This document shows, piece by piece, positions 30,392-42,760 of a stretch of 64,000 bases of DNA (positions within the stretch are counted from its first letter, which is position 1; every line of letters begins with the position of its first letter). The position numbers were made by a program, and so were the translations under genes. The stretch lies in assembly GCF_013391085.1 (NCBI RefSeq), contig NZ_CP058334.1, positions 2,914,001 through 2,978,000 of the forward strand, written 5' to 3'. A model generated the notes under the pieces. It was not told where the DNA came from and made no database searches. It was given only the letters and a program-made list of their open reading frames with translations. This DNA comes from Natronomonas halophila (GTDB lineage Archaea > Halobacteriota > Halobacteria > Halobacteriales > Haloarculaceae).

Positions 30392-31018
30392 ATGGACCAA
30401 TCAGAGGAGTCAGATTCGACCCATGGGGGGCGACGGAGCAAGGTCGCTCGACTCATCGAGGAGTACGACCTGCAGGGGCTGGGCACGGAGTTAGAGCAGC
30501 TCTGGACTGCCGAGGAAGACCGGCGGAGCCTTCGGGACCTGGCAGCCTACTTCAACCGAAAACTGCTGGAACAGGCCCTCGAAGCGGCGAACGTCCAGCA
30601 ACTCGATGGGGAGGTCGAGAACACCTATCGCCTGTTGACCGACGACGACGTCAGCAGCGCCGAGTCTACCCGTATCGAGCGGCGGCTCGAACGCGATGGC
30701 GTGGACGTCGAGTCCCTCGTGAGTGATTTCGTCACCTATCAGGCAATCCGAACCTACCTCAAGGACCACCGTGGTGCCGAGTACACGCCCTCGGAGACGG
30801 ACCCGCTGGAGCGTGAGAAGACGAACTTCCAGAAGCTCCGCGGTCGGATGGTCTCGGTCACGGAGGGGAAACTCGAACAGTTGCAGAAAAACGAGGCGTT
30901 CACGCTCGGCGAGTTCCGGACGCTCGCGGACATTCAGGTCGTCTGTGAGGACTGTAACACCCAGTTCGGCGTGCTGGAACTCCTCGAACGAGAGGGCTGT
31001 AACTGCGAGGACCGCTAG
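30392..31018 (+). CDS. rdfA: Rod-determining factor RdfA
   Basis: 208 aa. It matches the haloarchaeal RdfA family: an N-terminal SKVARLIEEYDLQGLGTELE (about 16-35), a helical middle (RSLRDLAAYFNRKLLEQAL, QAIRTYLKDH), and a C-terminal Cys-rich end CEDCNTQFGVLELLEREGCNC that probably binds zinc. RdfA is needed for rod shape in Haloferax volcanii. The SMC-like gene follows 80 bp downstream with its own promoter; the pair recurs in many haloarchaeal genomes. The molecular activity is unknown. Confidence 0.88.
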   Translation: MDQSEESDSTHGGRRSKVARLIEEYDLQGLGTELEQLWTAEEDRRSLRDLAAYFNRKLLEQALEAANVQQLDGEVENTYRLLTDDDVSSAESTRIERRLERDGVDVESLVSDFVTYQAIRTYLKDHRGAEYTPSETDPLEREKTNFQKLRGRMVSVTEGKLEQLQKNEAFTLGEFRTLADIQVVCEDCNTQFGVLELLEREGCNCEDR

Positions 31019-31065
31019 AACCATAATATAGTTATGCTTGTTATTTCTAAGCTTGGATACATAAC

Positions 31066-31075
31066 GTTAATATAG
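31066..31075 (+). promoter_or_regulatory. TATA-like promoter of the SMC-like gene
   Basis: gttaatatag lies about 28 bp before the ATG at 31099, giving the SMC-like gene a promoter separate from that of rdfA. Confidence 0.5.
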
Positions 31076-31098
31076 GATACACGTGTGCAACGAAGCAC

Positions 31099-33039
31099 AT
31101 GAGTCAAGGACAGGTTGCCTCGAAATGTCGACTAACGGCGCAGAACATCGGCGGCATCGACGAGACGGAGGTCGTCTTCGAACCCGGTGTCACGGTTCTG
31201 GCCGGCCGGAACGCCACGAACCGGACCTCGTTGCTGCAGGCGGTTATGGCCGCGCTCGGGAGCGATGACGTCTCCATCAAAGCCGACGCCGACGAAGCCA
31301 ACACCGAGTTGGCGCTGGGCGACGACACGTACGCCCGAACGCTGAAACGGCGCAACGGGACGGTACAGGGCACGGGGAACCCGTATCTCGAAGATTCGAC
31401 GGTCGCGGACCTCTTTGCGTTCCTGCTGGAATCGAACGAGGCGCGACGGGCCGTCGTAACCGACGCCGACCTCCGGGAGATCATCATGCAGCCCATCGAT
31501 ACGGAGGACATCCGGGCGGAAATCGACCGCCTCATCGAGGAGCGACGGCAGATATCCGATGAACTCGACGAACTCGACGACCTGAAAGACCGGCTGCCGT
31601 CCCTCGAAGAAAAGCGGCAGCGACTCCAGGACCAAATCGAGGACAAGCGCTCCGAACTACAGGAACTGGAGGAGGAAATCGACGCCCGCGACGCCGACGT
31701 CGAGCAGACCCGCGAGGAGCAGGCCGAACTGGAGGAGAAACTCGAAACCCTCCGCGAGAAACGGTCGACGCTCGAGGACGTCCGCTACGAACTGGATACC
31801 GAAGAGGAGAGCCTCGATTCGCTGCAGCAGGAGAAACGCGAGGTCGAAGAGGAGTACGAGGAACTGCCGGAGACGCCTGCTGGCGACCTCGACGAGATCG
31901 AAAGCCGCATCGACCGACTCCGAACGCGAAAGCAGGAGTTGGAGTCGGAACTGAACGAGCTACAGAGCGTCATCGGGTTCAATCAGGAGATGCTCGAAGA
32001 CGCCGGGGGCGACCTCTTCGATGCCCTGCAGGAGGACGCGGAAAGCGGGGCAGTGACCGAGGAGTTGCTCCCCGAGGAAACCGTCAACTGCTGGACCTGC
32101 GGTAGCGAGGTCGAACCGGAACAGATCGAATCGACCATCGACAAACTCCGCGACCTCAGCCAGGAGACGGTCGGCGAAATCAACGACATCGAGGACGAAC
32201 TCGACGACCTGAAAGCAAAGCGGCGCGACCGGCGGCAGGACCAGCAGCGTCGCGAGCGGCTCGAACGCCGAACGCGGGACCTCGAGGACGAAATCGAGGA
32301 CACCGAAGCCCGTCTGGAGACCCTCAAGGAACAGAGGAACGAACTCCGGGAGGAAATCGAGGCTGCCGAGGAGGAAGTCGAAACGCTGGAAAACGACGCG
32401 TACGACGAGATTCTCGACCTGCACAAGGAAGCCAACCAGCTGGAATACGACCTCGGGACCCTCGAAAACGACCTCGAACGCGTCGAGGACAACATCACGT
32501 CAATCGAGGAGCGCCTCGATGAGGAAAGCGAACTCGAGGAACGCCGCGAGGGAATCAACGACGACATCGAGGACCTGCGAACGAAAATCGAGCGCACCGA
32601 ACAGCAGGCCATCGAGGAGTTCAACGACCACATGGATACCGTGCTGGACCTGCTCGAATACGGGAACCTGGCCCGTATCTGGCTGGAGCGACAGGAAACC
32701 GAGGTCCGGGAAGGCCGGAAGAAGGTCACCAAGAGCGTCTTCGATCTGCACATCGTCCGCCAGACCGATTCCGGAACGACCTACGAGGACACCATCGACC
32801 ACCTCTCGGAGAGCGAGCGGGAGGTAACGGGCCTCATCTTCGCACTCGCGGGCTATCTCGCCCACGAGGTGTACGAGACGGTCCCGTTCATGCTGCTCGA
32901 CTCGCTGGAAGCCATCGACTCCGAGCGCATCGCGACGCTCGTCGAGTATTTCGGCGAATACAGCGACTATCTGGTCGTCGCGCTGCTGCCCGAGGACGCC
33001 AGTAGCGTCGACGCGGACCAGCGCATCGAGAGCATCTAA
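31099..33039 (+). CDS. Archaea-specific SMC-related (Rad50-like) protein, partner of RdfA
   Basis: 646 aa. The N-terminal ATPase half has a degenerate Walker A, LAGRNATNRTSLLQA (about residues 33-47), in which the usual GKS/T lysine is replaced by Arg. A long, highly charged coiled coil (about 130-560) is interrupted near residue 330 by CWTC, like the Rad50 zinc hook. The C-terminal half has a signature-like LSESEREVTGLIFALAGYLA and a Walker-B-like FMLLDSLEAIDSERI without the usual catalytic Glu pair. By analogy it is a dimeric, DNA- or membrane-organising protein working with RdfA; whether it hydrolyses ATP is doubtful. Confidence 0.85.
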   Translation: MSQGQVASKCRLTAQNIGGIDETEVVFEPGVTVLAGRNATNRTSLLQAVMAALGSDDVSIKADADEANTELALGDDTYARTLKRRNGTVQGTGNPYLEDSTVADLFAFLLESNEARRAVVTDADLREIIMQPIDTEDIRAEIDRLIEERRQISDELDELDDLKDRLPSLEEKRQRLQDQIEDKRSELQELEEEIDARDADVEQTREEQAELEEKLETLREKRSTLEDVRYELDTEEESLDSLQQEKREVEEEYEELPETPAGDLDEIESRIDRLRTRKQELESELNELQSVIGFNQEMLEDAGGDLFDALQEDAESGAVTEELLPEETVNCWTCGSEVEPEQIESTIDKLRDLSQETVGEINDIEDELDDLKAKRRDRRQDQQRRERLERRTRDLEDEIEDTEARLETLKEQRNELREEIEAAEEEVETLENDAYDEILDLHKEANQLEYDLGTLENDLERVEDNITSIEERLDEESELEERREGINDDIEDLRTKIERTEQQAIEEFNDHMDTVLDLLEYGNLARIWLERQETEVREGRKKVTKSVFDLHIVRQTDSGTTYEDTIDHLSESEREVTGLIFALAGYLAHEVYETVPFMLLDSLEAIDSERIATLVEYFGEYSDYLVVALLPEDASSVDADQRIESI

Positions 33040-33480: not shown

Positions 33481-33579
33481 ATGGTTTACGTCACTGGGGA
33501 TGGGGACCTGGCGCACCAGCGATTCCGAGGCCCGACGGCAGGCGAGTCGGCCAGTGGGATTCGGGGGAGAGAATCATGA
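33481..33579 (+). CDS. Possible 32-aa leader peptide coupled to pilB
   Basis: An ATG at the predicted transcription start opens a 32-codon frame (beginning MVYVTGDGDLAHQRF, ending GRES). Its TGA overlaps the ATG of the pilB-type gene (ATGA at 33576-33579). The position fits a leaderless upstream frame whose translation carries ribosomes to pilB. The peptide has no recognised family and no hydrophobic segment. It could be chance; the placement is the evidence. Confidence 0.35.
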   Translation: MVYVTGDGDLAHQRFRGPTAGESASGIRGRES

Positions 33580-36320
33580 CGAGGGAGGCGAGCGCATCAG
33601 GCCCCGACGATGGGGATTCCGCGGGTTCGGACCCCGAGGAAGCCAACGCCTCGAAAGCGGTCGGGGAGTACACGTGGCGGGATTTCATGCGCGAGTACGG
33701 TTACGCCGACGATATCGCGGCGGCGTATCGGGACGTCGATGTCGAGGTCGATTCGGATGGGCTGTTCGCGTTTCTCGGCAACGACCGGAAACGGGCGCCC
33801 GCGGAGGAGGACTGGGAGCGGACCGACTTCGACCCAGCCACGTTCCTGGGCTTTCCGCCCGGTGACGTTCCCGAACGGCTCGGTGCTGCCGCGGTCGACG
33901 CGTCGGCGCTCAGGAGCCGGTTCGAAAAGTGGGTCGACGCGACGCCCGTCGCGAAGGACGCCTACACATGGGAGCACTTCAAGTGGGAGTACTACTACGA
34001 CGAATCGGGCGACCCACCACGGGACGGAACCGGCGAGGTCGAACCGTTCGACCCCAGCGAGTACCTCGGGTTCGACCCGGAGAACATCGACTCGGTGCTG
34101 GCCGCTGGCGCCGAGGCCGCAGAAGAGATGGCCGAAATCGAGGAGGAACGGACCGTCTACGTGAACCCGGAACTCGACGAGGACGACTTCTTCTCGACTT
34201 CGGACGGCCGGACGACGCTGGTGAACCGCTACGACCTGGAGAAATCCGTCCCGATGGACAAGAAGGAACACTTCATCGAGGTCGAGCGGTACTGGGTGAA
34301 CGAGCCGTACGCCTTCGTCATCATCTTCCACTCGGTCAAGGAAAACGAGAAGAAGTACTACGCGGTCGACCCGTACCTGACCGACATCGAATCCGACCTC
34401 GTCGAGTACTTCTCGGGGAAACTCCGAACCAGTATCAAATACTCCGACGACGACGTGGTCGTCGAGGGAAGCGACGAGGACCGCGGCGACGTGCTCGAAG
34501 GCGAAGTCGAGTGGCTACTGGACCGCAGCGACGTCTGGCAGTCGACATCGGACGATACCGGCCTCGTCGACGAGGCCAAATCCTTCGTCGGAATGACCGA
34601 CGACCCCGACGACACGGACTCCGGGAGAGGAATCGAAGGCATCCGGGTGCGGCCCGAACCTGCCATCCTCGAAGAGGATCCCGACTGGATTACCGACTAC
34701 CAGGTCGAGAAACTGCTCTACGTCATCCGGCGGGACTTCATCGGCTACGAGCGCATCGACCCCATCAAGCACGACATCAACGTCGAGGACATCTCCTGTG
34801 ACGGTTACGAACAGCCGGTGTTCGTCTACCACACCGACTACGAGAACCTGATTACGAACATCCAGCACGGCGAGACGCGCCTCGATAACTTCGTCATCAA
34901 ACTCGCCCAGCGGTCCGGGAAGGGCATCTCGAAGCGACAACCGCAGGTCGACGCGACGCTTCCCGACGGCTCTCGCGCCCAACTCACTCTCGGGACGGAG
35001 GTTTCGGACCACGGGACCAACTACACCATCCGGCAGTTCAAGGACGTCCCGTTCACGCCGGTCGACCTCATCAACTGGAAGACGTTCTCGATGGACGAGA
35101 TGGCGTTCCTGTGGCTCTGCATCGAGAGTAACAAGTCGCTCATCTTCGCCGGCGGCACCGCCTCGGGCAAGACGACCAGCCTGAACGCCGTCTCGCTGTT
35201 CATCCCCTCGAACACGAAAATCGTCTCCATCGAGGACACCCGGGAGGTCGAACTCCCACAGCGCAACTGGGTGGCCTCCGTCACCCGGCCGTCGTTCAGT
35301 CAGGACAACACCGGCGACGTCGACGAGTTCGACCTGCTGGAGGCCGCGCTCCGTCAGCGCCCCGACTACATCGTCATGGGCGAGGTCCGCGGCGAGGAGG
35401 GCCGGACGCTCTTCCAGGTCATGTCGACGGGCCACACGACCTACACGACGTTCCACGCGGACAACGTCGACGAGGTGCTGAAGCGCTTTACGACCGACCC
35501 CATCAACGTCTCGAAGACCCTCTTCACGGCTCTGGACCTCGTTTCGGTCCAGGCCCAGACCAAAGTCGACGGCCGGAAGGTCCGGCGGAATACCATGATA
35601 ACCGAAATCAACGCTTACGACGCCGAGAACGACGAAATCAGCGTCCAGGACGTCTACCAGTGGCAGCCCGAGAACGACGAGTTCCTCCAGCACGGCGACT
35701 CCCGGAAGCTCCAGGAGATCGCCTTCGACCGCGGGTGGTCCCAGAACCGCCTTCGGCGGGAACTGTTCGAGCGGCGGACGGTGCTGTCGTATCTCATCAC
35801 CAACGGCCTCAACACCTACACCGAGGTCGCAGCGACGGTGCAGGCGTACATCAACGACCCCGAGACCATCCTGACGCTGATGGCCAACGACGAACTGGCG
35901 GCGAGTCTGGAGGACCTCCGGGAGATGGAGTCGGTGCTGATAGACGTCGACCCGGAAAAGGAGGCGCTCGTCCCCCGCCCGGACCCGGCCGACGACGTGC
36001 TCGCCGAAGCCGAGGCAGTCCTCGAGTCGGCCGACTCACGTGTCTTCGAGGAGTACCGGGGCCGCCGGGCGGGGAGTCTCGTCGAGGCGCTGTCGGAGGG
36101 GTCGCTCGACGAGGATATCACCGCACCGCCGGGTATCGACCGGTCGGTCCTTGAAGCCATCGCGAGCGACGGCGTCGGCGGAACGGACGAGTCGGTCTCC
36201 GCCGGCGACGGCCCCGAGGCCGACCCGGATGCCGATGCCGGGTCGACGCCCGATATCTCCGCCGACGGCGGCGAACTCGACAACCCGGACGATGGCGCCG
36301 TCGACGAGGGGGGTGAGTAA
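33576..36320 (+). CDS. pilB: Type IV pilus / type II secretion ATPase (PilB family)
   Basis: 914 aa, longer than most relatives. The C-terminal hexameric ATPase core has Walker A GGTASGKTTS (about 524-533), an Asp-box region EDTREVELPQRNW, the Walker B/His-box region YIVMGEVRGEE (about 589-599) and TTYTTFHADN. The N-terminus carries two similar segments, YTWRDFMREYGY...FDPATFLGF (32-93) and YTWEHFKWEYYY...FDPSEYLGF (130-165), which look like a tandem duplication. An acidic tail (about 860-914) ends the protein. It powers pilin assembly with the PilC-type platform encoded two genes later. The next gene starts 3 bp after the stop. Confidence 0.9.
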   Translation: MTREASASGPDDGDSAGSDPEEANASKAVGEYTWRDFMREYGYADDIAAAYRDVDVEVDSDGLFAFLGNDRKRAPAEEDWERTDFDPATFLGFPPGDVPERLGAAAVDASALRSRFEKWVDATPVAKDAYTWEHFKWEYYYDESGDPPRDGTGEVEPFDPSEYLGFDPENIDSVLAAGAEAAEEMAEIEEERTVYVNPELDEDDFFSTSDGRTTLVNRYDLEKSVPMDKKEHFIEVERYWVNEPYAFVIIFHSVKENEKKYYAVDPYLTDIESDLVEYFSGKLRTSIKYSDDDVVVEGSDEDRGDVLEGEVEWLLDRSDVWQSTSDDTGLVDEAKSFVGMTDDPDDTDSGRGIEGIRVRPEPAILEEDPDWITDYQVEKLLYVIRRDFIGYERIDPIKHDINVEDISCDGYEQPVFVYHTDYENLITNIQHGETRLDNFVIKLAQRSGKGISKRQPQVDATLPDGSRAQLTLGTEVSDHGTNYTIRQFKDVPFTPVDLINWKTFSMDEMAFLWLCIESNKSLIFAGGTASGKTTSLNAVSLFIPSNTKIVSIEDTREVELPQRNWVASVTRPSFSQDNTGDVDEFDLLEAALRQRPDYIVMGEVRGEEGRTLFQVMSTGHTTYTTFHADNVDEVLKRFTTDPINVSKTLFTALDLVSVQAQTKVDGRKVRRNTMITEINAYDAENDEISVQDVYQWQPENDEFLQHGDSRKLQEIAFDRGWSQNRLRRELFERRTVLSYLITNGLNTYTEVAATVQAYINDPETILTLMANDELAASLEDLREMESVLIDVDPEKEALVPRPDPADDVLAEAEAVLESADSRVFEEYRGRRAGSLVEALSEGSLDEDITAPPGIDRSVLEAIASDGVGGTDESVSAGDGPEADPDADAGSTPDISADGGELDNPDDGAVDEGGE

Positions 36321-36323
36321 ACC

Positions 36324-36665
36324 ATGGAATACGCCTACGCGGCGCTCCTGTTGGCCGAATCCGGGGAGGAACTCAACGAACGGAACCTGCGGGCGGTTCT
36401 GGAGGCAGCGAACTGCGCCGTCGCGGAGTCAAGGGTGAAGGCGCTCGTCGCTGCGCTGGAGGGCGTCGATACGGACTCGGTCGGCCCCGAAAACGTCGCG
36501 CAGTTGGGCGGCGAGGCGGCGCCCGACGCAAGCGCTGAGGACGGGACCGGCGAGGAGGCCGACGGACGGTCCGCCAGCGAGATGGCCGACGCGGCGCCGA
36601 CGGGGGCGGCGACCGAACCTGCTGGCGGCGACACGAGGGGGGAGCGTGGGGATGAGTCTGGGTAG
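36324..36665 (+). CDS. Ribosomal stalk P1/L12-like small protein inside the pilus operon
   Basis: 113 aa. The first ~48 residues ([20 protein letters not shown], then [24 protein letters not shown]) closely follow the N-terminal dimerisation domain of archaeal ribosomal protein P1 (also called L12), which normally binds the P0/L10 stalk. An Ala/Gly/Glu-rich acidic linker follows, as in P1. The conserved C-terminal GTPase-binding tail (normally acidic then GxGxLFG) is absent; the end is [12 protein letters not shown]. It lies 3 bp after pilB and overlaps the PilC-type start by 14 bp, so it is co-translated with the pilus machine. I infer a P1 paralogue recruited to a non-ribosomal or translation-linked role. 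Confidence 0.75.
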
Positions 36666-38685
36666 CGTCGGCGGCGAGGGACTGGGTCGGCGTTACGCCT
36701 ACCGACTCGTCGACGCGTTCGACCCCCTCTATCAGCGTCTCTTCGACGAGGACGACGAGTTCGTCGTCGACCTCGAACGGAAACTGGCCGAGGCACGGAT
36801 GGCGACGCCGGCCGAGCGGTATCTCCGGCGTGCGCTCGCGTTCGGCTTCCTTAGCGGTGTCGCGCTGTGGCTGTTCGGCGTCGGCCTCACGGGCTTCCTC
36901 TTCGGAACCGGCGCCGTCGACGTCGGCCCGCTGACCGGGCTGCGAATCCCCAACGAGACGCTGCTGGCCATCATCGAGACGGCCCGGGTCCCGTTTCTGG
37001 TCGCGATGACGGGCCTCGTTCTCGGGACGGTGGGTTTTATCGCCGTCTTCGGGGCCTACCTCTCGCTGCCGTATAGCCGGGCGTCGGCGCGGCAACGCGA
37101 AATCGACACGCTCCTCCCGGACGCCGTCTCGTTCATGTACGCCCTCTCGCTGGGCGGTCTGAGTCAGGTCGAAATCATCGAGACGATGGCGACCTCCGAG
37201 GACACCTACGGGGAGGTCTCGAACGAATTCCGGACCATCCTCCAGGAAACCCGCTACTTCGATACCGACTACCGGTCGGCCATCCAGAAGCGGTCGGCGG
37301 AGACCCCGAGCGCGGAACTGAGCCAGTTCCTCACGGACATGCTGTCCATCATCGACAGCGGCGGGAGCATGACCGACTTCCTGGAGGACAAGAAGGACGT
37401 CCACTTCCGGGCGGCCAAGGGCAATCAGGAACAGACCCTGGAGACGCTGGAACTGTTCACCGAGATGTATATCACCATCTCGCTGTTCCCGCTGCTACTG
37501 ATCATCATCCTCGTCATCCTCGATATGATTCGCGGCGGGCAGGACCTCCTGCTGTATGCGACCGTCTACGTCCTCATCCCGGGACTCGGACTGGCGTTTC
37601 TGGTCATCATCTCGACGGTCAGGGCCGACGAACCCGGCGACGGCTACCTCGAACTCGAGGAGACCGACCGCCGGTTCGAAGTCGGCAAGGAGTCGACGGG
37701 GCTCGATTTGGGACTCGTCGACCAGTTCACTGGGAGTTACCGCGTCTTCGACCGCATCGCGGACAGCGAGGGGACCCACGAGACGCTGGATGTCGTCAAA
37801 CGTCCCCACGTCTTCCTGCGGGACAACCCCTTCTACACCCTCGCGATTACGGTTCCCGCCTCGCTGATGTTTCTGGTCGTCGCCGTTCTGATGGGCGCCG
37901 TCCCCGTCTCGTGGTCCGGCGTCATCGACCGCCCGGTCTGGTCGACGCTCGTCTACGTCTACACCCCGCTGTTTACCGTCTGCGTCCCGCTGGCGGTTTT
38001 CTGGGAGTGGAACGTCCGCCGTCGGCGGGCGATTCTCGATGGGCTCTCAGAGAACCTGCGGAAACTGGCCAGCGCCAACGCGACGGGGCTCACCCTCCTC
38101 GAATCGATAAAGGTGGTCGCCGATACCACCCCCGGTCGGCTCGGCGAGGAGTTCGAGAACATGTACGCCAAGAGTCACTACGGGATGCACCTCAAGGAGT
38201 CGCTGGTCGTCTTCAACAACAAGTACCACATCCCGCGGCTGGCGCGCACGCTGAAACTCATCAGCAAGGCCCAGGAGATATCGAGTCAGATATCGTCGGT
38301 GCTGTCGACGGCCGCCAAGGCCGCCGAAACCCAGGAGGACATCGAACGCGACCGACGACAGCGCGCGCTGATGCAGGTCGCCATCATCATCATGACGTTC
38401 CTGACGCTGCTGGGTGTGATGGCGCTGATGAAAGCCCGGTTCCTCGACGTCATGGCGGAGGTCACAGAACAGAGCGGCGCCGGCGGCAGCGTCGCGGGCG
38501 GCGGCTTCGGCGCCTCCGTTAACATCGACCTGCTGTCGCTGCTGTTCTTCCACGCCGTGACGCTGCAGGCGATTCTGGGCGGTATCGTCTGCGGATACAT
38601 CAAGGAAGCGAACGTCATCTCCGGCGTCAAGTACGTGGTCGTGCTATCGGCCGCGGCGCTTGCCGTCTGGCTGGTGGTAGCATGA
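36652..38685 (+). CDS. pilC: Type IV pilus assembly membrane platform (PilC/TadC, T2SSF family)
   Basis: 677 aa from the ATG at 36652; a GTG at 36646 would add two residues. Two T2SSF domains are visible: about 155-265 ([40 protein letters not shown]) and about 460-570 ([20 protein letters not shown]). Hydrophobic helices occur at about 60-85, 110-140, 270-325, 405-450 and 575-677. It is the integral membrane base on which the PilB-type ATPase acts. Its end overlaps the next gene by 4 bp. Confidence 0.9.
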
Positions 38686-39224
38686 GCGGGGCCCGGTCCG
38701 GCGACGGGACTCGGGCCCAGACGCTGCCGGATTTCGCCGTCGGCGTCGCCGTCTTCCTCGTGACGACGTCGGCCATCTTCCTGTTCGTCCCCCAGTTGAC
38801 GCTCCCGTACGACGAACAGGGAAACTCGCTCGTCGTCCAGCGGGCGGCCGCCGACCTCGGTGACGACATGCTCGCCGGGGAGGCGCCGTCGGAACTCAAC
38901 GAGACCTGCACGGTAGCCTTCTTCGACCGAACCGACGCCGGGGGCTGTGGGTTCGAGGGCGGCGATTCGGTCACCGAACAGCTCGGCCTCGCGCCGACGT
39001 ACTCGGTGAACGTCACGGTTCGTGACGCGCCGAGCGACGGGCCGAACTCGACGGTTTGCCGCGCGGACGACGCCGATACCATCGGCGATTGCGGCTCCGG
39101 CGACGCGAATCACACGCTGGCGGTCGGACCGTCCCTGCCCCAGCGGGACGCGTCGGTCGCCGTCGCCCGTCGGGGGGCCTTCGTCGGCGAGGAGAGGGTC
39201 GTCATCGAAGTCGGGGTGTGGTAG
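38682..39224 (+). CDS. Pilin-like accessory protein of the pilus operon (DUF7287-type)
   Basis: 180 aa. A short N-terminus with RAQTLPDFAVGVAVFLVTTS (about 11-30) is followed by one hydrophobic helix and a beta-rich acidic extracellular domain with a Cys pair region (ETCTV, GGCGF, TVC, GDCG). The layout (charged start, one helix, soluble domain) is that of minor pilins, but the usual class III cleavage site is not obvious. The start overlaps the pilC stop by 4 bp. The family number is from memory. Confidence 0.65.
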   Translation: MSGARSGDGTRAQTLPDFAVGVAVFLVTTSAIFLFVPQLTLPYDEQGNSLVVQRAAADLGDDMLAGEAPSELNETCTVAFFDRTDAGGCGFEGGDSVTEQLGLAPTYSVNVTVRDAPSDGPNSTVCRADDADTIGDCGSGDANHTLAVGPSLPQRDASVAVARRGAFVGEERVVIEVGVW

Positions 39225-39857
39225 ATGGGGGGTCGCGCCCAGACGTTCACGCTGGAGGCGTTCGTCGCGGCGATACTCCTGCTTGCGACTATCGCCTTCG
39301 CCCTGCAGGTCGTCAGCATCTCGGCGAACACCGCCAGTCCCGCCGATGCGGAACTGCGGAACCAGCACGCCGGACTGGCTCGCGGCGTCATGGACGAAGC
39401 AGCCACCGACGGCAATCTCTCCCGGATGCTCCGCTACTGGGACCAGAACGCCTCGGCGTTCCACGGGGCTGACGAGGGAGCGGCCGACGGCAGCTACTAC
39501 GTCTCCCGGCTTCCACAGAACGCCGACGCCCCCGAATTCGGTCGGGCACTCGGGGAACCGTTCGACAATCGGCAGGTCCGGTACAACGTCGACCTCTATT
39601 ACACGAGAGCGAACGGGACCCGAGGCCACCAGCAGTTGGTCGACTCGGGAACGCCGAGCGACGACGCAGTCCGGGTGGTGGGGACGGTGACTCTCTACGA
39701 CGACACGCCGCTCCTCGATGCGAACGGGTCCCGCGAGAACACGACGCTCCGGGAGGTGGCGGCGGACTCGAATCAGGCCTTCTACGCGCCCGATGCACGG
39801 CCTGACGGCCCGCTCTACAACGTCGTCCGAGTGGAGGTGGTGCTATGGAAGCCCTGA
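39225..39857 (+). CDS. Pilin-like accessory protein of the pilus operon (DUF7288-type)
   Basis: 210 aa starting immediately after the previous stop. RAQTFTLEAFVAAILLLATI (about 4-23) gives a pilin-like N-terminal helix, then an extracellular domain with YYVSRLPQNADAP and several N-X-S/T sites. It resembles its upstream neighbour in the R-A-Q-T start but differs in the rest. Probably a minor pilin or pilus-tip or assembly factor. It overlaps the next gene by 13 bp. Confidence 0.65.
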   Translation: MGGRAQTFTLEAFVAAILLLATIAFALQVVSISANTASPADAELRNQHAGLARGVMDEAATDGNLSRMLRYWDQNASAFHGADEGAADGSYYVSRLPQNADAPEFGRALGEPFDNRQVRYNVDLYYTRANGTRGHQQLVDSGTPSDDAVRVVGTVTLYDDTPLLDANGSRENTTLREVAADSNQAFYAPDARPDGPLYNVVRVEVVLWKP

Positions 39858-40789
39858 GGCGGCGCGACCGGGGCCAACTGCTGATTATCACCGCCATCAG
39901 TCTCGCGATATTGCTCGTGTTGATGGCGCTGGCGCTGAACACCGCGGTCTACGGCGTCATCCACGCCGGAGGCGCGGACGACGACCTCCGGGAGGAACGG
40001 AGCGCCGTCCGCTACGAGGACGACGTCCGGCGAGGCATCGCTGGCCTGATTCCGGCCGTCGACGAGACGACCGACGGCGACTACGACACACACCGTATGA
40101 ACCTCTCCCGGGCGGTCGCGAACTGGAGCCACGTTGCAGGCCGACAGGAGGTCACCGATGGCGTCGCGACGAACGCCTCGCTGGCCGAGGCGCGCTTCGA
40201 GACGGACGTCGTTCACGACAACGAATCGCGGGCGTTCACCAACCGCAGCGACGCGGCGAACTGGGCCGTCGCCGACAACCTCTCGGCGGTCGACCGCTAC
40301 GAGATGGGTATCGCCCGCGAGCGACTGGTCAACACGAGCGACTGCAGCGCCGAGGGAACGTGCTTCGAACTCACGGTCGACGGCGGCGCCTGGGTGTTGA
40401 CGGCCTATCGGACGAACCAGAAGGTCGTTATCCGAATCGACGCCGGCGACACCACGAAATGCGAGACGACGAACCCGCCGGTCGCGGTCAACCTCACCAA
40501 CGGGAGTTTCGACCACGCGGACTGTTCGGGGGAGACGTTCACCCCCGTCGACGGGGAGTCCGGGGCCCCGTACGCCATCCGGTATGCGAACGCGGACAAC
40601 GTCACCGGGACCTACGAACTCCGCGGCGAGGGACGAGTCGACGAAAGCGACTATCACGCCGCCGGTTCCGGGGCATCTCCCCGGGTAGTGCCCCGCCTCG
40701 TCGGCGCGAACGTGACCGTGACCTACCGCTCGCCGGAGTTGCACTACAGAACGACGATTCGGGTCGACCCCGGTGAGACCGATGGGTGA
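39845..40789 (+). CDS. Pilin-like accessory protein of the pilus operon (DUF7261-type)
   Basis: 314 aa. RDRGQLLIITAISLAILLVL (about 6-25) is a TadE/TadG-like N-terminal hydrophobic helix; the rest is an acidic soluble domain with many N-X-S/T sites (NRSD, NTSD, NLTN, NVTG) and four or more cysteines, possibly disulfide-bonded outside the cell. This is the largest of the five accessory proteins. Its stop overlaps the next ATG by 8 bp. Confidence 0.65.
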   Translation: MEALRRRDRGQLLIITAISLAILLVLMALALNTAVYGVIHAGGADDDLREERSAVRYEDDVRRGIAGLIPAVDETTDGDYDTHRMNLSRAVANWSHVAGRQEVTDGVATNASLAEARFETDVVHDNESRAFTNRSDAANWAVADNLSAVDRYEMGIARERLVNTSDCSAEGTCFELTVDGGAWVLTAYRTNQKVVIRIDAGDTTKCETTNPPVAVNLTNGSFDHADCSGETFTPVDGESGAPYAIRYANADNVTGTYELRGEGRVDESDYHAAGSGASPRVVPRLVGANVTVTYRSPELHYRTTIRVDPGETDG

Positions 40790-41258
40790 CCGCGGCGTCT
40801 CGACGGTCGTCAGTTACGTGCTGACGCTGGCTATCGTGGCCATCCTGACGACGACGCTACTGAGCGCCTTCGCGCCGTTCGTAACCGACCAACAGCAGGA
40901 TGCCACCCAGTCGACGCTGTCGGTGCTCGGCAACGACATCGCGGGGGACGTCGACTCGGTCGACAGACTCGCAACACGTGGCGGGGACGTCCGAACGGTC
41001 GAGTTCCGAACCCGGCTCCCGGACCGGATCGGCGGCAGCCGATACGAGATCGCCGTCGAGAACGAAACGACCGACGGGGGACCGCCCTACGATTACGAGA
41101 TTTGGCTGCGAACGTCCGAGTTCGAGGCGAGCGCGGTCGTCCGCCTCCGGACGCGAACGCCCGTCGAGACGCGACCCGGAACCGACCCGTTAGACGGTGG
41201 CACGGTTCGTATCGGCTACAACGCGACGGCCGACCGGGTGGTGATTCGGAATGTGTGA
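40782..41258 (+). CDS. Pilin-like protein (DUF7266-type)
   Basis: 158 aa from the ATG at 40782; a GTG at 40773 is less likely. DRGVSTVVSYVLTLAIVAIL (about 3-22) looks like a class III signal peptide, with cleavage expected before the Ser-Thr hydrophobic stretch, as in archaellins and archaeal pilins. A small beta-rich domain follows. Likely a minor pilin processed by the prepilin peptidase (PibD), which is not encoded in this window. It overlaps the next gene by 8 bp. Confidence 0.7.
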   Translation: MGDRGVSTVVSYVLTLAIVAILTTTLLSAFAPFVTDQQQDATQSTLSVLGNDIAGDVDSVDRLATRGGDVRTVEFRTRLPDRIGGSRYEIAVENETTDGGPPYDYEIWLRTSEFEASAVVRLRTRTPVETRPGTDPLDGGTVRIGYNATADRVVIRNV

Positions 41259-42018
41259 CGCCGACGCCCGCCCCGCCTCCGAACGCGGCCGCGCCCAGAG
41301 CGAACTCGTGGGCTTTCTCCTCGTGTTCAGCGTTGTCGTCCTCACAATCGCGCTGGTCGGCCTGACCGGGTTCGTCGGCCTCGACGGCGCGAAGGATTTC
41401 CAGCGAACGACCAACGCCGAACAGGCGTTCACCGGCTTTGCGGATTCCGTCGACGACGTGGCTCGGGATGGTGCGCCAAGTCGCTCTACCGAAATCCGAA
41501 TCGCCGACGGGCGACTCTCGCTTGCGAGGACCGAGACGCGAATCCAGGTCACCGGCGTCGACGGGAGCACGACCAACGTGACCGTCCGTCCCGCCCCGGT
41601 CGTCTACGGGTCGGGGACGGGAACGACCATCACCTACCGCAGTAGCGCGCTGATTCGACGGGACGGCGACGCCGCCGTCATGTTCCGCGACCCGGGCTTC
41701 GTCCTGACCGACGAGCGGGTGGTCCTTCCCGTCGTGGCCACGAACAAGGCCGGCGGCGGTCCGGTCGGCGGCACCAGCGCCGTCGAAGTGCGGACGGTCC
41801 GCGCCGGAACCACCGTCGTCGCTCAGGACCGCCCCGTCGCGAACGTCACGCTGAACATGACGACCCGAAACCCCGCGGTCTGGGTCCGATACTTCGAGGC
41901 GGCCGCCGACGATGGTCCGGTGACGAACGTCGAGCGCAACGGCGACAACGTCGTGGTGACCCTCGAACCAGAGCGGGCGACCGTAACGGTCCATCGGGTC
42001 GACGTCGGGTTCGAGTAA
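41251..42018 (+). CDS. Pilin-like protein (DUF7289-type)
   Basis: 255 aa. ERGRAQSELVGFLLVFSVVV (about 11-30) forms the pilin-like start. The soluble part (ALIRRDGDAAVMFRDPGFVL, NVTLNMTTRNPAVWVRYFEA) shows the same order of segments as the first half of the big protein at 43932-45713 (GVWRRDGNGSVMVSPPEI, SRYYRAWGRYFED), so the two are related. It ends the pilB operon; the gene after it faces the other way. Confidence 0.7.
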   Translation: MCDADARPASERGRAQSELVGFLLVFSVVVLTIALVGLTGFVGLDGAKDFQRTTNAEQAFTGFADSVDDVARDGAPSRSTEIRIADGRLSLARTETRIQVTGVDGSTTNVTVRPAPVVYGSGTGTTITYRSSALIRRDGDAAVMFRDPGFVLTDERVVLPVVATNKAGGGPVGGTSAVEVRTVRAGTTVVAQDRPVANVTLNMTTRNPAVWVRYFEAAADDGPVTNVERNGDNVVVTLEPERATVTVHRVDVGFE

Positions 42019-42052: not shown

Positions 42053-42679
42053 TTAGGCAATTTTCCGGCTGACGTCGATGGTGACGTCGGCGGTCAAATC
42101 CAGGTCTATCGATTCCGGGAGCGCCTCCCCGCCGCGGAACTTCGGAATCGCGAGATCGTTCTGGAGGGTGCCGCCACGGACCTCCGTCGAAAGCGAGAAG
42201 ACGATGTCTACCAGATACTCGGTTCGGTCACGCTGGGACGGGGTGTCGCGGCCGTCGAGACAATGGAGCAATGCCACCCCGTCGGTTTCGTCGATTCGGG
42301 CCTTCAGGTCGTTCACGAACGACCGGTATCGCTCGGAGTCGGTCGATTCGAGCAGCCGGACCGGGTCGACGATGAGCGTCGATTCCGCCGGCAGTTCCTC
42401 GATGGCCGACCGCGCCTCCGACAGCGGGGCCGCGGGGCTAACACGGTGGATGTCGACGCCGTCGGTGTCCGTTCCGGTCTGTTTCAGGGCGTCCTCGACG
42501 TCGGCTACCGTCCGCTCGGTCGTCAGGTAGGTCGTCGGCCGAACCGCGGCCATCTCGTAGAGGAACAGTTCCGACTGGCTCGTGGGCGAGGCCGATAGCG
42601 CGACGACGCGGCCGGCAGGGATGCCGCCGTCCAGCTTCCGGTCGAGGACCTCGATTCCCGTCTCCAGCGTCTCGGTCAT
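42053..42679 (-). CDS. RecA/KaiC-fold (RAD55-like) protein with a lost P-loop
   Basis: 208 aa from the ATG at 42679. TGIEVLDRKLDGGIPAGRVV (about 6-25) is the typical KaiC/GvpD/RAD55 entry, but the P-loop that should read GxxxxGKT is SASPTSQSE, with no lysine. STLIVDPVRLLES (about 103-115) is a Walker-B-like strand. It resembles the haloarchaeal 'HTR-like' proteins. Without the P-loop it probably does not hydrolyse ATP and may act as a regulator or scaffold. It is convergent with the pilin-like operon end and divergent from the pilin genes at 43037. Confidence 0.75.
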   Translation of the reverse strand: MTETLETGIEVLDRKLDGGIPAGRVVALSASPTSQSELFLYEMAAVRPTTYLTTERTVADVEDALKQTGTDTDGVDIHRVSPAAPLSEARSAIEELPAESTLIVDPVRLLESTDSERYRSFVNDLKARIDETDGVALLHCLDGRDTPSQRDRTEYLVDIVFSLSTEVRGGTLQNDLAIPKFRGGEALPESIDLDLTADVTIDVSRKIA

Positions 42680-42760
42680 GACAGCAATCGACAACGCCGA
42701 CGCTCATTGTAATGGAGTTTCTTCTCCCTTTTCGCCGCCGCCGGGCAGGGGTCCCGTAAA

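Follow-up and report, generated by a model that had tools for sequence, protein, structure and literature searches.

Ribosomal stalk proteins are parts of the translation machine, and a gene for one of them set between two genes of a type IV pilus operon raises a simple question: what could a piece of the ribosome be doing there? Such a gene is found in a 64,000-nucleotide stretch of the Natronomonas halophila genome (the window; all coordinates below without a contig name are those of this stretch), at 36324-36665 on the + strand. From the letters alone, the original prediction had read it as a paralogue of the archaeal stalk protein P1/L12 without its C-terminal tail. We refer to it as pil-P1, a label coined for this analysis only.

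The gene does belong to a type IV pilus operon, as had been claimed: Pfam matches identify its neighbours, all of them on the + strand. Upstream lies pilB, for the archaeal type IV pilus assembly ATPase (33576-36320, 914 aa; T2SSE at E=1.7e-30 and PilB3_C at E=1.2e-9), the product of which carries an acidic C-terminal tail. Downstream come pilC, for the membrane platform protein (36652-38685; T2SSF, E=6.4e-26), then genes for a pilin-like DUF7287 protein (38682-39224; E=2.7e-30), a DUF7288 protein (39225-39857; E=2.3e-53), a DUF7261-like protein for which the match is weak (39845-40789; E=0.0057), and two more pilin-like proteins, of the DUF7266 (40773-41258; E=3.5e-24, with Pilin_N at E=4.5e-4) and DUF7289 types (41251-42018; E=1.6e-52). 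PilB, PilC and the DUF7287/7288/7266/7289 layout are shared with the clade 2 (euryarchaeal) type IV pili, the PilB3-PilC3 type known from Haloferax (Makarova et al. 2016, PMC4858521). Because of its PilB3_C match, the window operon probably belongs to clade 2 as well, but in standard operons of that clade pilC follows pilB with no gene intervening. Here, pil-P1 starts 3 bp past the pilB stop codon. Its 3' end overlaps pilC, by 14 bp as had been predicted if the ATG at 36652 is the pilC start codon, or by 20 bp with the alternative GTG at 36646. From the ATG, PilC begins MSLGSVGG..., similar to other PilC N-termini. As a side observation, a YTWxxFxxEYxY motif is repeated in the N-terminal part of the window PilB (33576-34100), as YTWRDFMREYGY and YTWEHFKWEYYY.

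The 113-aa product was compared with the P1 family in three ways. The NCBIfam model TIGR03685 ('ribo_P1_arch') matched residues 1-86 with E=1.8e-18, the Pyrococcus P1 structure (PDB 3a1y) matched residues 1-53 with E=4e-14, and Pfam Ribosomal_60s gave E=1.1e-5, so that the HMM search suggested at the outset came out significant. Two of these scores fall below the curated cut-offs (66.8 bits against the equivalog threshold of 100 for TIGR03685; 26.3 against 28.1 for Ribosomal_60s), most likely because the C-terminal part of pil-P1 is not conserved. All three matches favour P1 homology far over chance. A single-sequence, single-chain AlphaFold2 model points the same way: its mean pLDDT is 65 but reaches about 80 across the first 50 residues, helices are modelled at residues 2-13, 19-28, 35-45 and 55-64, and the best match in the PDB is chain A of the P1/P0 complex (3a1y_A), on which ~55 residues superpose with an rmsd of 1.1-1.3 A. 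The four-helix N-terminal dimerisation domain of P1 is thus present in both sequence and model, and the reading as a P1 paralogue stands. The dimerisation domain (36324-36482) ends at about residue 53, a little beyond residue 48, the limit first given. The remainder (36483-36662) is an acidic arm rich in Ala, Glu, Asp and Gly, which is modelled with a pLDDT of about 50 and is probably disordered.

Compared with the archaeal stalk P1 (L12), pil-P1 therefore has the same N-terminal domain (62-64% of ~55 residues are identical in the Pyrococcus protein), followed by the same kind of acidic flexible arm, but it is encoded away from P0 and lacks the LFG tail. The genome has a separate, normal P1 gene, a point that the original prediction had wanted checked; it lies beside P0/L10 and L1 (G000:C1:774367-774525, - strand) and its product ends in GGEGLGELFG. 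The corresponding GLGELFG is absent from the window pil-P1, confirming that the tail which binds translation GTPases is missing, and GLGxLFG is absent likewise from 10/10 pil-P1 proteins compared and from the eleventh. Among canonical P1 reading frames, 52 of 54 have a (G)LxxLFG tail, the other two being probably misread frames. In published work, C-terminal peptides of archaeal P1 that had been shortened by three residues at their end no longer bound EF1A effectively (PMC6791870), and pil-P1 should therefore not recruit translation GTPases.

A second P1 copy is not in itself peculiar to pilus operons. In 16 haloarchaeal genomes we found 17 stand-alone second copies (L072, L073, L075-L088 and L090), with no pilus genes nearby; they form a clade of their own in 97% of bootstrap trees and, unlike pil-P1, all 17 keep the GLGxLFG tail. 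These are likely to be an alternative stalk protein. Could pil-P1 be just another ordinary copy of the stalk protein? Its P1 homology and fold would agree with that, but the tail that every other extra copy retains is gone, and the seven pil-P1 proteins scanned with TIGR03685 all scored 47-75 bits, below the equivalog cut-off of 100, against 121 bits for a canonical P1 and 127 bits for a stand-alone, tail-bearing extra copy. We regard this possibility as barely credible. In passing, the pil-P1 arms of three loci of one genus (L033, 5912-6304 on the - strand; L034, 6019-6417; L036, 6488-6877) contain an internal LDTLF or LDALF (LxxLF) that resembles the lost tail and is followed by further residues; it is possibly a relic of it.

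The survey of P1 genes covered 146 genomes of the family and 392 of the order, nearly all of which have one P1 each. A tail-less P1 beside pilC recurred in 11 genomes (the window genome, G129, G011, G022, G024, G025, G214, G308, G282, G438 and G232) spread over four haloarchaeal families (f1, f4, f12 and f14), which answers the proposal to look into the pilB-pilC spacers of haloarchaea. It starts 2-6 bp after pilB in 10/10 loci whose contig reaches that gene (the G232 contig ends just upstream of pil-P1, leaving pilB out of view), and the pilC start lies between -14 and +4 bp relative to the pil-P1 stop. Such tight spacing suggests that the three genes are translationally coupled. Two of the genomes, G129 and G232, are incomplete MAGs in which no P1 other than the pilus copy was seen. 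No second P1 copy was found in 119 non-haloarchaeal genomes from a 147-genome sample of the phylum, save in the MAG G459, where three copies sit on separate contigs, possibly through contamination. A mobile origin of pil-P1 was considered and rejected, with no pil-P1 in plasmid or phage collections.

The operons that carry pil-P1 are related to each other. In a PilB+PilC tree of 55 loci, which included the ten pil-P1 operons then known, all ten grouped in a single clade (SH-aLRT 97), with the standard operons outside; only L104 (genome G066), L137 (G067) and the truncated L112 joined them. The window genome also has another pilB-pilC operon, of standard type, in which the two genes overlap by 4 bp and nothing lies between them, and a further standard-type PilB is encoded in the nine other P1-bearing genomes whose PilB genes were searched. 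At none of the standard junctions that were read was there a gene between pilB and pilC: the two overlap or lie within 79 bp, and they couple directly, most commonly by a 4-bp overlap. The DUF7288 protein gave another handle on the same group, for which its profile is a mark. When the profile built from P1-bearing operons was run on 392 genomes, the ten best matches were ten pil-P1 operons, nine of them at 272-323 bits and G232 at 247.7 bits, all others being at or below about 230. G232 was in fact predicted from this score: the locus was then read and a tail-less P1 was found upstream of pilC, an outcome that could have failed. We conclude that all eleven pil-P1 operons represent one rare, accessory type IV pilus class.

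The two exceptions within the clade bear on the history of the gene. G066 and G067 have no pil-P1 in the operon and a single P1 match per genome, and so look like true absences; pil-P1 is then either dispensable for this type of pilus or was never gained there. The distribution on the PilB+PilC tree needs 3-4 changes, and the simplest history, given the identical position everywhere, would be one gain and two losses. A tree of P1 alone did not reject a single origin (AU p=0.17) but, with 54 columns, is too short to settle it, and there may have been several gains. What all 11 genomes, from four families, have in common is the place of the gene in the operon; the gene is also co-inherited with one pilus class, G066 and G067 excepted. 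We conclude that pil-P1 is probably a dedicated component of that class, and not an ordinary stalk protein.

Is it a component that does something? A P1 duplicate could have landed in the operon as a neutral passenger and have been kept mainly because pilB and pilC stay translationally coupled through it. The two clade members without it would fit such an idea, as would the arm, which is barely constrained (dN/dS about 0.6-0.76 in relatives, about 0.6 in the two closest pairs), and the one outlier, the G438 protein, which is shortened to 62 aa, has no arm and has a diverged helix 3 (identity to the canonical consensus 0.25). However, purifying selection acts on the N-terminal P1 domain, with a dN/dS of 0.26-0.27 in the two closest pairs of relatives; pil-P1 proteins retain hydrophobic and helix-3 positions; the gene has lasted in 11 genomes of four families; and other pilB-pilC pairs manage to couple without it. 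A mere passenger is thus improbable.

Conservation is uneven along the domain. Helix 3 is closest to the canonical P1 consensus (identity 0.87), followed by the loop at residues 14-18 (0.82) and by helices 1 and 2 (0.74). P1 is known to clasp the spine helices of P0. The explanation we favour, and hold only tentatively, is that a P1 paralogue lodged between pilB and pilC has become an adaptor or stabiliser, its dimer clasping a helix of PilB-PilC. That it may bind a P0-like helix in PilB or PilC had been suggested from the start. The scenario would run as follows. A paralogue of the stalk P1 would have been captured between the two genes in an accessory class of haloarchaeal pili, and then kept. 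Synthesised in step with PilB and PilC through translational coupling, it would form a helical dimer and clasp a helix of the PilB-PilC machine in the way P1 clasps P0. The acidic arms would project into the cytoplasm, and the protein would act on the pilus motor as adaptor or stabiliser, its role in recruiting elongation factors being gone. This suggests the reuse of a piece of the ribosome as a part for pilus assembly.

The conservation of helix 3 is, by itself, double-edged, as the same would be expected of a protein that still binds P0. Tail-less as it is, pil-P1 might associate with P0, by itself or paired with normal P1 in a heterodimer, and either lower factor recruitment or keep ribosomes close to the pilus machine, which would link translation with pilus expression. 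Competition with the stalk and a tie between pilus synthesis and translation were both among the first suggestions made for the gene. In a model of the eukaryotic stalk, helix 3 accommodates a P0 motif (review PMC4379515); this is the best conserved part of a dimerisation domain that pil-P1 has retained, and a dominant-negative stalk protein would have to lack the tail in just this way (PMC6791870). Yet pil-P1 is confined to a single pilus class and was never found on its own, it has no link to ribosomal genes, the extra P1 copies found elsewhere keep their tail, and several positions that are invariant in canonical P1, such as 4, 9, 41 and 53, are changed. We therefore consider such a modulator of the stalk unlikely, if worth keeping in mind. 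An intermediate situation, in which the stalk dimer has become a subunit of the pilus motor but still exchanges with P1 or binds P0, so that assembly of the pilus is linked directly to translating ribosomes or kept at them, appears to us rather more doubtful.

For the adaptor proposed above, the partner helix was sought in two ways. Profiles of the P0 spine helices, run against PilB, PilC and their neighbours, gave a best E of 0.44, when the P0 control gave 7.5e-46; a dissimilar helix could still bind. Comparison of P1-bearing and P1-less operons revealed no column of PilB separating the two groups and four such columns in PilC, among which only Ser519 (codon 38200-38202 on the + strand, numbering from the GTG at 36646) tracks the two P1-less members of the clade. 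This residue, within the second T2SSF domain of PilC (Pfam match to residues 471-595), is Ser in 11/11 operons with pil-P1 and Ala in 42/43 of those without, including both P1-less clade members. It is a lead, and as one column in about 1,400 the association may be due to chance.

The arm could also be where the function resides. In that case pil-P1 would be a regulator or chaperone, its arm being a soluble counterpart of the acidic tail of PilB that controls the ATPase or keeps PilB and PilC apart until assembly. In most standard PilBs the tail is long and acidic, and it frequently contains aromatic motifs, SIFGDD and FGQFVPKAG among them; the window PilB tail has no such motif, and LDTLF or FEFE occurs in some pil-P1 arms. 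But the length and motifs of the PilB tail vary in both groups of operons and the arm is the least conserved part of pil-P1, which makes this proposal improbable too. Two oddities concern these acidic segments. In G214 (L070) both proteins contain tandem repeats, with about 12 copies of DEPTSEAM in the PilB tail and several of EDPAM in the pil-P1 arm. Among the long acidic C-termini of standard PilBs (L134, L136, L141, L118 and L091), the aromatic motif GFSFE recurs along with SIFGDD and FGQFVPKAG.

The original prediction was aware of no described case, and our own literature search, conducted mostly outside subscription journals, likewise returned nothing relevant on P1/L12 and pili or on haloarchaeal P1 paralogues. 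In the accessible main text of the survey of archaeal pilus operons (PMC4858521), neither ribosomal proteins nor L12 are mentioned. pil-P1 would thus be an undescribed component of a pilus class, and a clear-cut natural example of how a domain of the ribosome, at the same place across four families, is put to use in a different machine. It also gives a sequence feature by which this undescribed archaeal pilus class can be recognised, and a small, testable protein-protein module.

Finally, the surroundings of the operon deserve a word. Just 5' of it (30392-33039) are genes for RdfA (rod-determining factor A) and then for an SMC-like coiled-coil ATPase. Past its other end, on the opposite strand (42053-42694), a gene encodes a 213-aa protein that looks RecA/KaiC-like by eye, and proteins resembling it flank the pil-P1 operons of G129 and g3.
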